Assembly: GCA_949751835.1 (NCBI GenBank)
Contig: CATKHK010000045.1
Span: 248,001 to 312,000, forward strand
Source of the DNA: Blepharisma japonicum
Taxonomy: Eukaryota; Ciliophora; Heterotrichea; Heterotrichida; Blepharismidae
Length of the DNA stretch: 64,000 nt
Direction: 5' to 3'
Made by a program: the position numbers and the translations under genes. This document shows, in pieces, positions 1 through 62,618 of this stretch. The number at the start of each line of letters is the position of its first letter. Positions within the stretch are counted from its first letter, which is position 1. The notes below the pieces were generated by a model. It saw only the letters and a list, made by a program, of their open reading frames with translations. It did no database searches and was not told the DNA's origin.

Positions 1-1930
1 AATTCATACCCAATGGATACAGTCTAGGCTCCACTTCTGGAGAATTTTGGTCTCTAGCATCAAGCATTATAGACTCTTCTAGCATTCTTTGATAAGCAGC
101 TGATGGTAAAATTGCAGCTCGCCCATCAGGTAAGAATATTAGCCCTTTCAAATTATTTCCATGGTCTATTGGTAAAGGATCTGGTATATACGGTCTTAAA
201 ATTTGCATTAGATGGGTTTGGCAGGCTTTTTGCAGTTCACTTAATTTAAAATTATTTGCTAATTCTAAGAGCTCTACAACTTGATCATAAGATTTGCAAG
301 ATGATATTGTTTCCAGCAGTATTTCCATATCATCCAAATAGATATACTCAATTACTTTGTTGAATGCTTCTTTTGAATATGTTATTTCTATTGTCGAAGT
401 ATTTTTTAATAATTGTTTAAAATAGTCAGAGCGGCTTGCAAGTACAATTTTATGGCAACTTATAATTTCTTCTCTTGTTCCTATTTTAAACACAAAATTC
501 ACATCTGTAAATAGCCCTTGTTTAAATGAAGAATACAAATCTGCAGCAAGAGATTGAGGTGATGGCTCTGCTATAACAATATTATGAACTCCCCCACAGG
601 CAATTGATAACACCTTTCTAGATAGCAATTGAGATATTAGTTTAGGAGTCGGCTGGTAATTAACTGATTTTTGTTCAGAGTCCCTAATAGATCTTGCAAT
701 CCTTCTTTTTGTGTTGTCTGTGAGATCTTGTTGAAGAAGTCCAAGTTGTCCACAGCTTGAAGCGCCAAAGCTATATAATACTCCTCGATCTGTGAGTACC
801 AAAGTATGGGCTTCTCCACATGCGACTGAAGTAACGATTTTTCCTTTTAGCTCAGTAATCAGTCTAGGTAAAGGTTCATAAGGAGATTCTTCTTGGTCTT
901 TTGGCAAATAGGCTGTATCTTCAATGCCTAGTTGCCCACAAGCAGCAGCTCCCCAGCCATATAATTCTCCATTTACTGTAACAGCCATACTATGAGAATC
1001 TCCACATGCAATATAGGAGATTTTTGTCTTTTTGAGGGTTTCTATTTGTTTAGGAATAGGCATAAATGGACAATCATCTACATCTACAGGTAAGTTTTTT
1101 ATGTTTCCTAAACCTAATTGGCCGAAACTTCCACCCCCAAAGCAATATAAGCTTCCTTCTTCTGATAGAGCTAGAGTATGTACATCTCCACAAGCTGCCA
1201 TTTTCAGCTTATAAGCTCTAAGTGCAGATACTAATTTCGGGACTGGATGATATGGGTACCCATCTTCATCCAAAGGAAACACCGATGTATCCGGATGTCC
1301 CAGTTGCCCGCATGCTCCAGCCCCTCACGTATACATAAGTCCTTCTTCACTTATCGCTACTGTATGCGCTTTTCCACAGCTTATATGTTTTATTGATACA
1401 TTTAAAGAGTCCACTATCCTTGGTTCAGGCTGAAACGGGCATCCATCATCATCTTTTGGCATATTTAAAGTATCAGGATGGCCTAGTTGTCCACAGCCTC
1501 CTCCACCTCATGTAAGTACAATTCCTTCTGATGTGAGTGCAGCTGTATGTGCATCTCCACAAGAAACTAGAACAATTTTGAAATCTAAAAGTCCTTCAAT
1601 AAGTCTGGGTTCTGGATGATAGGGATATCCTTCAGAATCTTTGGGCATTTGATCTATATCGCTTAGCCCGAGTTGGCCACAGGCACTTGCACCCCACGAA
1701 TAAACCCGGCCATTACTTGTAACTGCAAGAGAGTGGCCATCGCCACCGGCTACTTGGGTGATGACATAGCCTGATAGTGTTTTTATTGGGACTGGAAAAG
1801 GCTGATATGGAAAACTTTCTGAATCTTTAGGCAGTTGGGAGACTTCAATTGGTGAAAATCCTAGCTGTCCCATTTCACCTGAGCCCCATGTGAAAACTTC
1901 ACCTCCGAGATCTTCATGATCTGATTCCAT
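1..1930 (-). CDS. RCC1-repeat and BTB-domain protein, 3' partial
   Basis: Seven RCC1-type repeats of about 60 residues start right after the Met. Each has a WG or FG turn, CGQLG and a CGxxHT-like strand, and most carry an insert of the type PKDSEGYPYHPEPR. A BTB/POZ domain follows (around FTDVNFVFK, CHKIVLASRSDYF, VIEYIYLDD), and the frame runs off the left edge. In the family, RCC1 propellers bind partner proteins and BTB domains often recruit Cullin-3, so a ubiquitin-ligase adaptor role is plausible inference, as in RCBTB proteins. The conserved Trp of repeats 3 and 4 is TGA (near 1508 and 1326) whereas repeat 2 has TGG at the same site. This is direct evidence that UGA is Trp. No intron was needed. 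Start ATG is at 1930. The C-terminus lies outside the window. Confidence 0.88.
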
Positions 1931-2066: not shown

Positions 2067-3074
2067 CTACGTTTGGATATCTTGAGAATGGGAAATCATA
2101 ATTTCTGGCTTTAATTTCTTTTTTTGTTGGATTCAAGGATGAGTGAGTGCTACTCCAGCAGACATCCGGGCAAATGTGTCTGCCTGGGTTAGATCTCGTA
2201 TCAGCTCTGCAGCTAGTTTTGGGATTTTCTGTTCTTTCAATAATTCAATTAAACCATTAACAATTGAGTTGTTCAATTCCTTATGAAGATCTTCGAAGGG
2301 AAGTACTTCTCCTGTAAAAAGAGCGATAAGAAGAATCCCACAGCTTCACTCGTCACATTTTTCGTTATACATTTTGGAATCGAATTCTGGGGCAGAATAC
2401 CAAGAAAATGTATATTTATCGATGAAGAGGGATAAGGTTTGAGAAAACCTTCGGAGCTTGTCTGTTTTGAGTATTAAACCTGTTAATATTGAACTTGTTT
2501 CAAATCCAGTGAGTTTTATGCCTGGACCATCTTTATCTAAAATAATGTTTCGAGGGTTTATTGATCTATGGATTATTTTTTTACTATGTAAAACGGTAAT
2601 GACTGTAAGAAGCTGCTTTATAATTGATAAGCATTCGTATTCAGTAAACTGTCTTTGCTCAATTAAGCCCTCTAAAATTTGAGAGTCCTCGTAGTGCTCA
2701 GTAACTACGTAAAAGTTAGCATCATCTTCGAAAATTTCATAGCACTTTATGACGTTTGGATGCTTTATCCTCCTTCAAATTTCTACTTCTTGATTTATTT
2801 CTTTAAAATTAGCCTCGACAGGTTGATTAGTCTGCTTTTTTATTCTTTTTACAAATCTCATAGTATCCTGAGGGACGAAATTACAAAGCCAAATCTTTAT
2901 ATTATTCTCGTTTTTCACTTCCTTAACTATTTCGTAATTGTCGCTAAGACCTCCTTGCTGAATCTTCATTGCAGCTTCGGAATCAGAGTTAATTGTATGT
3001 ACACATGATTGATCTGTAGAACTTGGAGTTACTTTTTGCAATGGATTTTTCCCTTTTACCAAGAAGCATCCCAT
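2067..3074 (-). CDS. CDPK/CAMK-like pseudokinase, N-terminal MGC
   Basis: 335 residues holding one protein-kinase fold. The glycine loop has lost its glycines (VKNENNIKI near 53-61). A beta-3 Lys remains (FVKRIKK, K76). The catalytic loop reads HRSINPRN (169-176) instead of HRDLKPEN, and DFG is GFE (190-192). The WYSAPE motif and the CDEWSCG helix are kept, so the scaffold is intact while catalysis is probably lost. The opening GGLSDNYEIV resembles calcium-dependent protein kinases, but no EF-hands follow. The N-terminus MGCFLVKG suits myristoylation and palmitoylation, suggesting membrane attachment. Trp codons at VEIW and DEW are TGA. It ends at TAG, about 1.1 kb from the end of the F-box/CDK/cyclin gene. 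Confidence 0.85.
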
Positions 3075-3212: not shown

Positions 3213-5318
3213 TTAAAAATAGCGATTTTGATAATGCATAGACGGAGGCCAAAGCTGTCGAGGGTTAATTTCCTGATGCTTATGATTTATTGCTTCAAAT
3301 CTTGAAATTTGGGGATTTGTTTTTGCATCAAGTCATAAACTTTTAATAAACTCAATTACTGAGTTTAAGTCTGCATCTTGAAAATTCGTAAAAAAATCCA
3401 CATTTTGAGGAGCTGGAAATCTTTGTGTAGCTGAGCAGCTTGCATAAATAATTCCTGCTGCTAGCAAAGAGTATTTATATTTAAGACTTTCATATGAAAG
3501 TAACATAAGATCAGAAAGAAATAAAGCAATTTTATAAGTCTCAAGATCCAAATTAAGCTCAGCTTGATAAGCTTTAATAAAAAACAGTGTTGTAGGAGAT
3601 AAAATTCTAAACTTTATCCTTTTTAATATTTCTTTTTCCATTTCCACGACCTGAGCAGCTGTAAACTCATCAGCAGTAATATAGGCATACTCTATTGAGT
3701 TTTCCTGTCTATAATATTCTTTAGATCTCTCATGAAAAACATCAGCGATTTTCATACAAGCTACTCCAACTAACTGCAAATTTGATCTTTCTACTTTAGC
3801 AACACTCAAAACTCTATCAATATAATTAACAGCCAAATGCAGGGTTTCGTCATTTACTTCAAAATGGACTGCTACATCTATTAGTCAGTCAACTAAAATA
3901 CTTCTCATTGCTGCATTTATATCTTTTTGCATAACCAAATACGTTGGGCTTGGGGAAATTTGGGACTCCAAATAGAGAAGGTGAGATATATAACTTTGCA
4001 AAGGGTCTGAGGGGGAACTCATTTCTATGTCAAAAAAGGGGTGGCAAAGGGCTTGAGAAGCTGTAATTCTTGTTCTTGGGTTTGGGTCTAAGCATTTTTG
4101 CAACAAATCTAATCCAGATGCTCCAATTATACTGCCTATTTTCTGGAGAACTGTGAATATTTGCTCACGAGCTGGTATCAAAGCAGAAATTACTCTTTTA
4201 AATTCTTCTGAGTTAGTTTCAGCAAGAACATCAGAGAAGTTAATTTTTTCCCACTTTGGGAATGATTTTGCCTGAGTTGAAGCCTCATCTTCACTGACTC
4301 CAACCACTTTAAAAATCTTAAAAAGCTGCTCAATTTCGCTTTCACCATTAAATAATGGCATCTTTGTAATTAATTCAGCAATTAAACAACCTACGCTTCA
4401 TACATCAATTTCATATCCATAAAGATCAGATCTTAATAGCATTTCAGGAGCTCTATATCATAGCCTCCTAATTTCCCTACCAGAGCGATTTCTTTCTTTA
4501 GGGTCTTCTGGTGTGTACATATAATGTGGAATTGACGCTAACCTGGACAGAGTGAAATCAGCTATTTTTAGCAGACCTGAATCAGTTATCAATATATTAT
4601 CTGGCTTTAAATTCCTATGTATGACCCCTTTATCATGAATATATACCAAGGCTTCAAACATTTGTCTGGATAATGATTTTATCATTGATAAAGGAATATT
4701 CCTGCGATTTCCTGTTTCATAGACTTTTATGAACTCTTTCAAGTTGTATGTGGATTGTTCGGTGCAAGTGTAGACTGTCTTTTTGATCACTTCGGAACCA
4801 AGAATTTTTACGATGCCAGGATGAGAGAATTCTGATAAATAGCCTATTTCTCTTAATAAAGAGGTAGGAACGCCATCATCAAAGCCTGCATTTGTGACGT
4901 CAAGGTTTACTTTTCTTAGAATCACAGGTTCTTCTGTGCTTCTTAAGAAGCCTTTGTAGATTCTTCCTTTAGACCGTCTTTCAGCTAGACATTCAACACA
5001 CCTTACGAGCCATTTCAATTCTACGTTGGCTGCACTTAATTGTTTTCAGAGTATAGGGGAATTTGCTAGATATCTTCAATCCTTGCAAACCAATTGAATT
5101 TCTTTTATAAGTTCACTTGCTGAAAAAAGGCTAAAAATACAAATCATTAGGTCATTGGGGATTATTTGAAAATAATTGAGACGTTTAAGGTTTTTCGAAC
5201 ATTTCTTTAAAGGTTGTCGGTGATCTATTGAAGAGTTTGTGATTTCTAGTAGGCATTCTCTGCTTGTTTCTTTGCCTTTAGGCATTCTAGTGTTTTTCTT
5301 AAGTTCCTCTTTTTTCAT
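3213..5318 (-). CDS. F-box / CDK-like pseudokinase / cyclin fusion
   Basis: One frame of 702 codons with no TAA or TAG and no intron. Residues about 46-98 form an F-box (IIPNDLMICIFSLFSASEL, then VCKDWRYLANSPILWKQL). Residues about 101-425 are CDK-like: VPTSLLREI (150-158) in place of PSTAIRE, LWYRAPEML (286-294), DVWSVGCLIAEL. The beta-3 Lys is Arg (R135), HRD is HRN (234-236) and DFG is DFT (254-256), so kinase activity is doubtful. Residues about 450-690 are a two-box cyclin of A/B type: MRSILVDWL (471-479, the MRAIL docking patch) and LAVNYIDRVLS. The CDK-cyclin linker is very short. Conserved Trp residues W287 and W478 are TGA codons. Cyclin F is F-box plus cyclin; here a CDK fold lies between. 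Role inferred: SCF substrate adaptor in cell-cycle control. Confidence 0.9.
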
Positions 5319-61152: not shown

Positions 61153-62618
61153 ATGGAATTAGAAGAGCCTGATTTTTTAGTAGCTTTAACCCACACTGAA
61201 AGTGCAGATGGTAGACTATTAGAACTGAACTGGTGCGCGTATAATATCCATACGAAAGCGGTCACAGAATTGTCTAATATTTTTATTAATCCCAGTGGAG
61301 AAGAGCTCGAAGATATTTTTACATCTGGAGAAGTCACTGAAACTACAGGTCTTACTCTACAAGATATGCAAATAGCAGAAGAGCTCCCTTCTGCAATGCA
61401 GAAGTTTAATAAATTTGTGTACGAAACTATTATTCTTCAAAATTCCAGCTTTTCCATAATCACAAATGGAGATACATTATTGACCCAGCTTTTACCAGAT
61501 GAATGTACACGACTAGGCTTAAAATTGGCTCCTCATTTTTCAAAATATCATGACATTCAGACAGAATTTGAAAAATCTCATCCTGAAGCTTCTCAGAATT
61601 TAAGTGTAAACCAAATGCTGAGGCATTTAGGATTGACTGAAGTGCCTGAAAAAATTAAAGCCCATGAAGAATGCAAAAATATTATTAGAATTATAAGCCA
61701 CATTGTAAAGTCTGGACATAAGTTTAATGCACAAAAAGATATAAATACAGAAAAAGCCAAGCCAAAAGTGCAAGTGCCAGTCAAACAGGAAATTATTCAG
61801 CCACCATTGCCACCGCCACTTTTATCACCTCCGAGGCCTTTATATGGAAAAGTTATCATCATAAAAGGAACTACTAACAAAACAGAAGAAAGCGAAATCG
61901 AAGAATTTTTATATGGGTTAAGAATAGAAAAAATTTTGCATATTGTAGATCCATATGGGGAAAGAACTGGCTTCATTTTGAGTAAAATGCTCTCCGATGA
62001 AGATGCGCAAGAAGCATTATGCTATGATAAAAGAAAACTAAGAAACAGAACTATCAGCAGTAATTTATATTTTAGTTGAAGAAGCTTCAGAAGAGTTGTT
62101 TCAGCTTGCTTCTCAAAATGCCGAATCAATGCTCAATGGTGAAAGACTATTTTTTATCAAAATTCGTGAAAAAAATCTACAACTTGAAACTAAATCAAGT
62201 AAAATTTTACTTAGAATGGTCGTATCTTCATAATGGAAATTATTATTATGGTCTTGATGACAAAAATGATATCCAAAATTACCAACAGCTTAGAGTTGAT
62301 GAGCAAGAAATTATAAATATTTTTAGAAGCAACCTAACAAAATCACTGCCATTTTTAACATCTGAGCAAAGATCAAGGGCTGTGAAATTACGCGGCTTTC
62401 ACCAAAAATTTAAAAAAATTGAGGTTTTGGAGTATTTAAGAGATTTTGAAGTAACCAAAAATAATTTGATTTTGAGGCAGGATTCCATTGATAAGACTAC
62501 TGGAGAAGCTATTGTAGTACTAAAGACACAGGAAGAAAAAGATAGAGTCTTAAAGACGCTTTCAAATAAAATGTTTGGAGGCAGATTAATAGAAGCTATA
62601 CCATTAATTAATACATAA
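61153..62618 (+). CDS. Exonuclease-fold protein with two hnRNP F/H-like RRMs
   Basis: 477 residues in three exons; both introns are 16 nt (62060-62075, GTAATTTATATTTTAG; 62199-62214, GTAAAATTTTACTTAG). Residues about 5-200 resemble the ERI1 class of DEDDh 3'-5' exonucleases (FLVALTHTES strand, VTETTGLTLQDM, ITNGDTLLTQLLP, VNQMLRHLGL, ECKNIIRIISHIVKSGHKF). However, the first Asp reads His or Thr and the C-terminal His/Asp site is not conserved, so activity is doubtful. A Pro-rich linker leads to RRM1 (about 232-315, KVIIIKGTTNKTEESEIEEF) and RRM2 (about 398-472, RAVKLRGFHQKFKKIEVLEY, GEAIVVLKTQEEKDR), nearest hnRNP F/H quasi-RRMs. It is likely an RNA-binding protein of RNA processing or decay. 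Confidence 0.75.

Follow-up and report, generated by a model that had tools for sequence, protein, structure and literature searches.

What could a single polypeptide do that carries an F-box, a CDK-type kinase domain and a two-box cyclin? The question is raised by positions 3213-5318 of the window, the whole stretch of 64,000 nucleotides of Blepharisma japonicum DNA analysed here. An open frame on the minus strand extends from the ATG at 5318 to the TAA at 3213 and gives 701 amino acids plus TAA when TGA is read as tryptophan, which bears out the single 702-codon frame free of TAA and TAG that the initial annotation had described without naming a strand. In the forward direction, the first frame of 3213-5318 has many stops, and TAA and TAG codons number 35, 18 and 39 in the three plus-strand frames. 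When the window was shuffled 50 times under a first-order Markov model, no TAA/TAG-free run exceeded 250 codons (the 50 maxima averaged 187), against the 701 found here. Six TGA codons lie in frame (W81, W91, W287, W307, W478 and W662) and close it unless they encode tryptophan. Five of the six fall on tryptophans of the domain alignments (W81 and W91 with Skp2, W287 and W307 with CDK2, W478 with cyclin A), which supports both the TGA=Trp code and the frame itself; W662 aligns to a tyrosine in cyclin A. In the accessible part of a report on Blepharisma stoltei, TGA likewise encodes tryptophan, intergenic regions are short and introns are tiny (PMC9942806). Candidate introns of this kind were sought as GT..AG stretches of 15 or 16 nucleotides, of which the gene holds 14. 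In-frame tiny introns were rejected, since none of the six 15-mers starts with GTA and taking out any one of the eight 16-mers would disrupt the frame. The open frame thus suggests an intronless gene read as one mRNA, and the frame and its domains are almost certainly real. As a side observation on the code, TGA occurs inside 9 of the 12 window frames counted, and the fusion gene has 6 TGA and 3 TGG tryptophan codons, compared with 16 and 45, respectively, in the other 11 frames counted (Fisher p 0.023, uncorrected, for a comparison picked post hoc).

The three kinds of domain proposed for this frame all score above their Pfam cut-offs. Nearest the N-terminus, residues 52-95 (5034-5165, minus strand, as for all features of this gene) match the F-box-like family PF12937 with 38.2 bits (E 1.2e-9, cut-off 24.3), and the F-box family PF00646 is borderline at 20.7 bits against a cut-off of 20.5. 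When the N-terminal 114 residues are compared with the PDB, the F-boxes of Skp2, FBXL17 and FBXW7 rank first (best E 0.00068); all F-box matches are weak, and none of the 21 PDB matches with E up to 1 is named cyclin F. The kinase domain follows at residues 117-429 (4032-4970; Pkinase, 159 bits, cut-off 31.7), and the cyclin consists of Cyclin_N at residues 444-572 (3603-3989; 110.9 bits, cut-off 23) and Cyclin_C at residues 575-682 (3273-3596; 44.6 bits, cut-off 22). Only 21 residues separate the F-box and kinase matches and 14 the kinase and cyclin matches, with the frame open through both junctions. NCBIfam returned kinase-containing families only, all far under their own cut-offs.

Details of the kinase half point to a CDK fold that has lost its catalysis. 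Among the 60 matches listed of 2521 in the PDB, CDK2 comes first, followed by CDK3 and CDK1, and 42% of the 264 positions aligned with a CDK2 fragment are identical. The three substitutions on which the initial annotation had built its proposal of a structural, non-enzymatic CDK half are all present in the translation: R135 (4914-4916) at the beta-3 lysine position (CDK2 K33), HRN at 234-236 (4611-4619) for HRD, with CDK2 D127 replaced by N236, and DFT at 254-256 (4551-4559) for DFG, with CDK2 G147 replaced by T256. In a comparison set made up of 57 of 85 segments found by patterns for the catalytic loop or nearby motifs, a choice that biases the H, R, K and N columns of that loop, the corresponding residue is lysine in 56, aspartate in 57 and glycine in 56 of the 57 kinases; asparagine was permitted by the patterns at the HRD aspartate and was seen in none of them. 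The glycine loop is degraded to E113-x-R115-x-x-G118, at columns where glycine stands in 45 (113), 56 (115) and 40 (118) of the 57. In the P+1 region one of four positions is kept, CDK2 V163, V164 and T165 all being replaced and R169 retained, and the counterpart of the PSTAIRE helix reads PTSLLRE (3/7 identical). Other catalytic-type residues are retained, namely E157, K238, N241 and D254 (CDK2 E51, K129, N132 and D145). A rescue of activity by K136 as a shifted beta-3 lysine was considered and dropped, as CDK2 also has a lysine adjoining K33. Because the beta-3 lysine, HRD, DFG and glycine loop are all altered, the residues of an active CDK being replaced by R135, N236 and T256, the kinase half is very probably inactive and can be described as a probable pseudokinase.

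Other CDK surfaces are largely conserved. All five residues of the T160-type phospho-threonine switch are kept (R156, R235, R259, T269 and E282, equivalent to CDK2 R50, R126, R150, T160 and E162), the match of E282 depending on where the activation-segment insertion is placed. That insertion comprises 11 residues (aa 270-280) directly after T269 (4479-4514 for T269 and insertion together); taken alone (4479-4511), it is charged and lies beside the presumed CDK substrate site. The roles of the five CDK2 residues in the switch have been described (PMC6170502, in the part available). Two further blocks stand out, GESEIEQLFKIF at residues 325-336 (4311-4346; CDK2 205-216), identical to CDK2 at 9 of 12 positions, and SFPKW at residues 352-356 (4251-4265; CDK2 239-243), identical at all five. 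We take the corresponding CDK2 segments to be part of the Cks-binding surface. Together, GDSEIDQLFRIF and SFPKW share 14 of 17 residues with CDK2, a level that 6 of 20,000 randomly drawn pairs of contiguous blocks, equal in length to these two, also reached; the two blocks were picked after the alignment had been inspected. Searched against the PDB, segment 325-367 retrieves CDK2, CDK3, CDK1, a Giardia CDK and one CDKL5 (E 0.68); no sequence named CDK4 to CDK9 is among the 56 different ones with E of 1 or less. With a best match of CDK1/2 type, the full switch and an intact SFPKW, the domain can be called Cdk1/2-like, and the Cks-type segments may be a simple inheritance from a Cdk1/2 ancestor.

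The cyclin half is closest to cyclin A2. Among the 60 PDB matches listed of 65, cyclin A2 scores 114.8 bits, B1 90.7, cyclin F 66.5 (9cb3), and E1 and D1 about 56. The core of an RxL-type hydrophobic patch is found in MRSILVDW at residues 471-478 (3885-3908), of which W478 is a TGA codon, so that the docking patch reported earlier as MRSIL is indeed present at 471. At the seven cyclin A positions assumed here to form the patch, six residues are as in cyclin A, the exception being E220, replaced by D481. Of ten cyclin A positions that we take to be CDK contacts, five are kept, K266 is replaced by V527, and three are uncertain owing to a small insertion. The term "cyclin F-like", used in the initial annotation, therefore holds for the layout, an F-box and a cyclin in one chain, and fails for the family; membership in cyclin F was rejected on the scores with A2 and B1. 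Cyclin F is an SCF adaptor with an F-box and a two-box cyclin in one chain, as in the Blepharisma protein. The two differ in that cyclin F has, to our knowledge, no CDK domain, and in that the Blepharisma cyclin half is nearer to A2 and B1.

The initial annotation knew of no protein of this exact three-domain build; the joining of a CDK to a cyclin, for its part, has already been published (PMC3019232; PMC3143110). According to the available sections of the first source, Phytophthora infestans has four CDKs with C-terminal Cyclin_N and Cyclin_C domains, including PITG_21617, and the fusion structure was verified by RT-PCR because the combination was then undescribed (PMC3019232). All four carry an asparagine for the aspartate of subdomain VIb and are thought to be inactive; autoactivation of PITG_21617 was raised and then argued against, and the cyclin domain was suggested to regulate the stability of the fusions (PMC3019232). 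Related fusion genes with the same substitution were listed from other oomycetes, P. aurelia, T. thermophila and Theileria annulata (PMC3019232). The Tetrahymena gene is CYC13 (EAR91121), and the first sighting of a cyclin-CDK fusion is credited to Eufolliculina uhligi in a work cited to 1999 (PMC3143110, in part). Eufolliculina uhligi and Blepharisma stoltei are both heterotrichs in the NCBI taxonomy, so that one of these two ciliate fusions comes from a heterotrich, as does the present protein. The likenesses are in both order and signature: the Blepharisma protein, like those of P. infestans, has its CDK ahead of Cyclin_N and Cyclin_C within a single frame and an asparagine (N236) for the HRD aspartate. 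The HRN motif, earlier likened to ErbB3, is thus common to the published fusions (PMC3019232, as far as its available text goes). One of the P. infestans fusions has a PSTAIRE helix (PMC3019232, available sections), the counterpart of which reads PTSLLRE in the Blepharisma protein. In its architecture and its signature substitution, the protein appears to belong with the CDK–cyclin fusions.

What is known is the CDK–cyclin fusion, and what is added is the N-terminal F-box. The word F-box has no mention in the main text of PMC3019232 and no place in its table of accessory domains, and it is likewise unmentioned in PMC3143110. In CYC13, BLAST found nothing similar to the N-terminal 35%, which the authors hesitated to count as part of the protein (PMC3143110, in part). 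Neither CYC13 nor an F-box was found in the available portions of PMC8282021, PMC7022673 and PMC4818844. As far as their accessible text goes, other comparisons lie further away: a sorting of CDKs and cyclins in which no fusion is mentioned (PMC7686383), a list of separate grapevine genes unrelated to an F-box–kinase/cyclin fusion (PMC6883492) and a study of human cyclin F unrelated to an F-box–CDK fusion (PMC7219108). Neither an F-box on a CDK–cyclin fusion nor the exact three-domain layout was found in the open-licence PMC literature, which is not proof of novelty. Relatives were also sought in contigs. Five pattern scans of viral contigs, with the whole protein, the cyclin, the kinase, the kinase core and the cyclin core, gave 88, 15, 36, 102 and 17 matches and no tblastn relative among them; a further viral-contig scan gave 21 loci, with a kinase match in all 21. 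A scan of genome contigs gave at least 551 related among at least 579 matches, the best 80 of which were kinases of bacterial records. The cyclin and F-box parts found no match better than E 3.9 in the 101 loci formed by the 21 viral loci and the best 80 of the genome scan.

Predicted structure gives a partial view of how the parts might be arranged. AlphaFold2 reached a pLDDT of 35.9 from the single sequence. With 57 kinase rows the kinase part folded, and pLDDT rose to 81-97 in 18 of the 22 ten-residue blocks of 121-340 and in all five of 381-430, with lower values at 141-150, in the activation segment (261-290) and at 341-380. F-box blocks of the same model were at 59-65 and cyclin blocks (441-680) at 31-77; as the alignment rows held no cyclin, the low-confidence cyclin half speaks neither for nor against docking within the chain. 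Foldseek matches against the PDB (50 listed of at least 2,000) were all CDK entries, nearly all of them cyclin-bound CDK2 or CDK3, with one Pho85–Pcl10, and this result adds little beyond sequence. The N-terminal helix of a cyclin is known to engage the CDK C-lobe (PMC6170502, in part), which makes the 14-residue linker at least compatible with in-chain docking.

With modest confidence, we favor a reading of the protein as an SCF substrate receptor that uses a locked pseudo-CDK–cyclin platform to dock CDK-type substrates. The F-box would bind SKP1 and so make the protein a subunit of a CUL1-based SCF ubiquitin ligase, an adaptor role that had been proposed before and that the PF12937 match of 38.2 bits makes reasonable. 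The dead CDK domain and the tethered A-type cyclin would fold into a fixed platform resembling a CDK-cyclin pair, docking on each other within the chain, and the cyclin patch would then dock RxL-type motifs of putative substrates, so that proteins usually phosphorylated by CDK-cyclin would be ubiquitinated instead. More speculatively, the kept Cks-type segments could recruit Cks, in which case the ligase might read targets already phosphorylated by CDKs. The loss of catalysis at several sites, set against docking sites that are kept (5/5 for the switch, 14/17 for the Cks-type blocks and 6/7 for the RxL patch), was counted for this platform, as was the aspartate-to-asparagine change shared with the published fusions. 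Counted against it were the lack of any relative with a cyclin or F-box part among the contigs scanned, the cyclin A contacts, kept at only half of the positions and with K266 changed to V527, and, against a platform made of a single protein, an ATG (M433) between kinase and cyclin. A related assembly offers a comparison. In the complex of SCF-Skp2, Cks1 and CDK2-cyclin A, each component is a polypeptide of its own and the kinase is catalytically active. There, an F-box protein, a CDK, a cyclin and Cks meet on a phosphorylated substrate (PMC6170502, available part); for the Blepharisma F-box, it is Skp2 that ranks first.

Four other explanations were weighed against the substrate receptor. The F-box might serve the turnover of the protein itself, SCF assembling in cis and making the pseudo-CDK-cyclin a short-lived scaffold that ties up CDK substrates, inhibitors or Cks, with no other protein as a target. 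This is unlikely, yet it agrees with the presence of an F-box beside a dead kinase and with the published suggestion that the cyclin domain may regulate fusion stability (PMC3019232, in part); nothing separates it from the receptor reading, as an RxL patch kept at six of seven positions suits both. It is quite improbable that the F-box works with SKP1 in some complex other than SCF, or that an F-box-like fold serves another contact: PF00646 just passes and the N-terminal 114 residues find only weak PDB matches, but the F-box-like PF12937 is well above its cut-off. A kinase still active by an unusual mechanism, as part of a CDK-cyclin enzyme that activates itself and is carried to SCF complexes, could appeal to the retained E157, K238, N241 and D254, to the T160-type switch and to the autoactivation mentioned for PITG_21617. 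The latter was itself disputed, the published fusions share the change from aspartate to asparagine (PMC3019232, in part), and an enzyme would have to tolerate the lysine-to-arginine change, HRN, DFT, loss of the glycine loop and the altered P+1 region all together, which makes it very doubtful. Hardly credible is an artefact, either an assembly join of separate genes, which was dropped, or separate transcripts such as a cyclin started from M433, an ATG that does lie in the kinase-cyclin linker ahead of the cyclin N-terminal helix. Against either form, a single frame stays open across the two junctions, where the Pfam matches stand 21 and 14 residues apart, and no methionine occurs between residues 58 and 212, so that the kinase would have no ATG of its own ahead of its N-lobe. 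In addition, a kinase followed by a cyclin is found again in independent genomes, and this arrangement was RT-PCR-verified in P. infestans (PMC3019232, available sections).

CDK–cyclin fusions that are probably inactive were described by 2010 at the latest, and the literature found offers no more on their function than a conjecture on stability. The presence of an F-box in one of them provides a concrete hint of a job. If the substrate-receptor reading is true, it describes another way to build a cyclin-based SCF receptor, unlike cyclin F in that the CDK is kept as a structural part. A broader proposal, tentative and a good deal less likely, would make ubiquitin-ligase receptors of all the known dead CDK-cyclin fusions in alveolates and oomycetes, with an F-box that is explicit here and perhaps hidden elsewhere in unassigned N-termini. 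Were those fusions receptors, a CDK-cyclin pair would have been turned into a substrate reader: catalysis would be lost, the RxL patch, the phospho-switch and the Cks site would be retained, and the docking partners or phosphorylation targets of CDKs would be sent to destruction.

Some minor observations concern other genes of the window. At 61153-62618 (plus strand), two frames overlap in a way that points to a frame break or an intron near 62118-62190; two GTA..AG 16-mers were tested there as introns, and neither opened one frame. The next gene downstream of the fusion, at 2067-3074 (minus strand), encodes another protein kinase (Pkinase, 134 bits) that looks catalytically altered by eye, with HRS for HRD and TGF for DFG, and its MGC start could be acylated. 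Beyond it, the frame at 2-1930 (minus strand), which runs off the window, encodes RCC1 repeats followed by a BTB domain. Such an RCC1 and BTB layout is that of CUL3 adaptors, and the F-box gene and the RCC1/BTB gene make two possible cullin adaptors within 5.3 kb.
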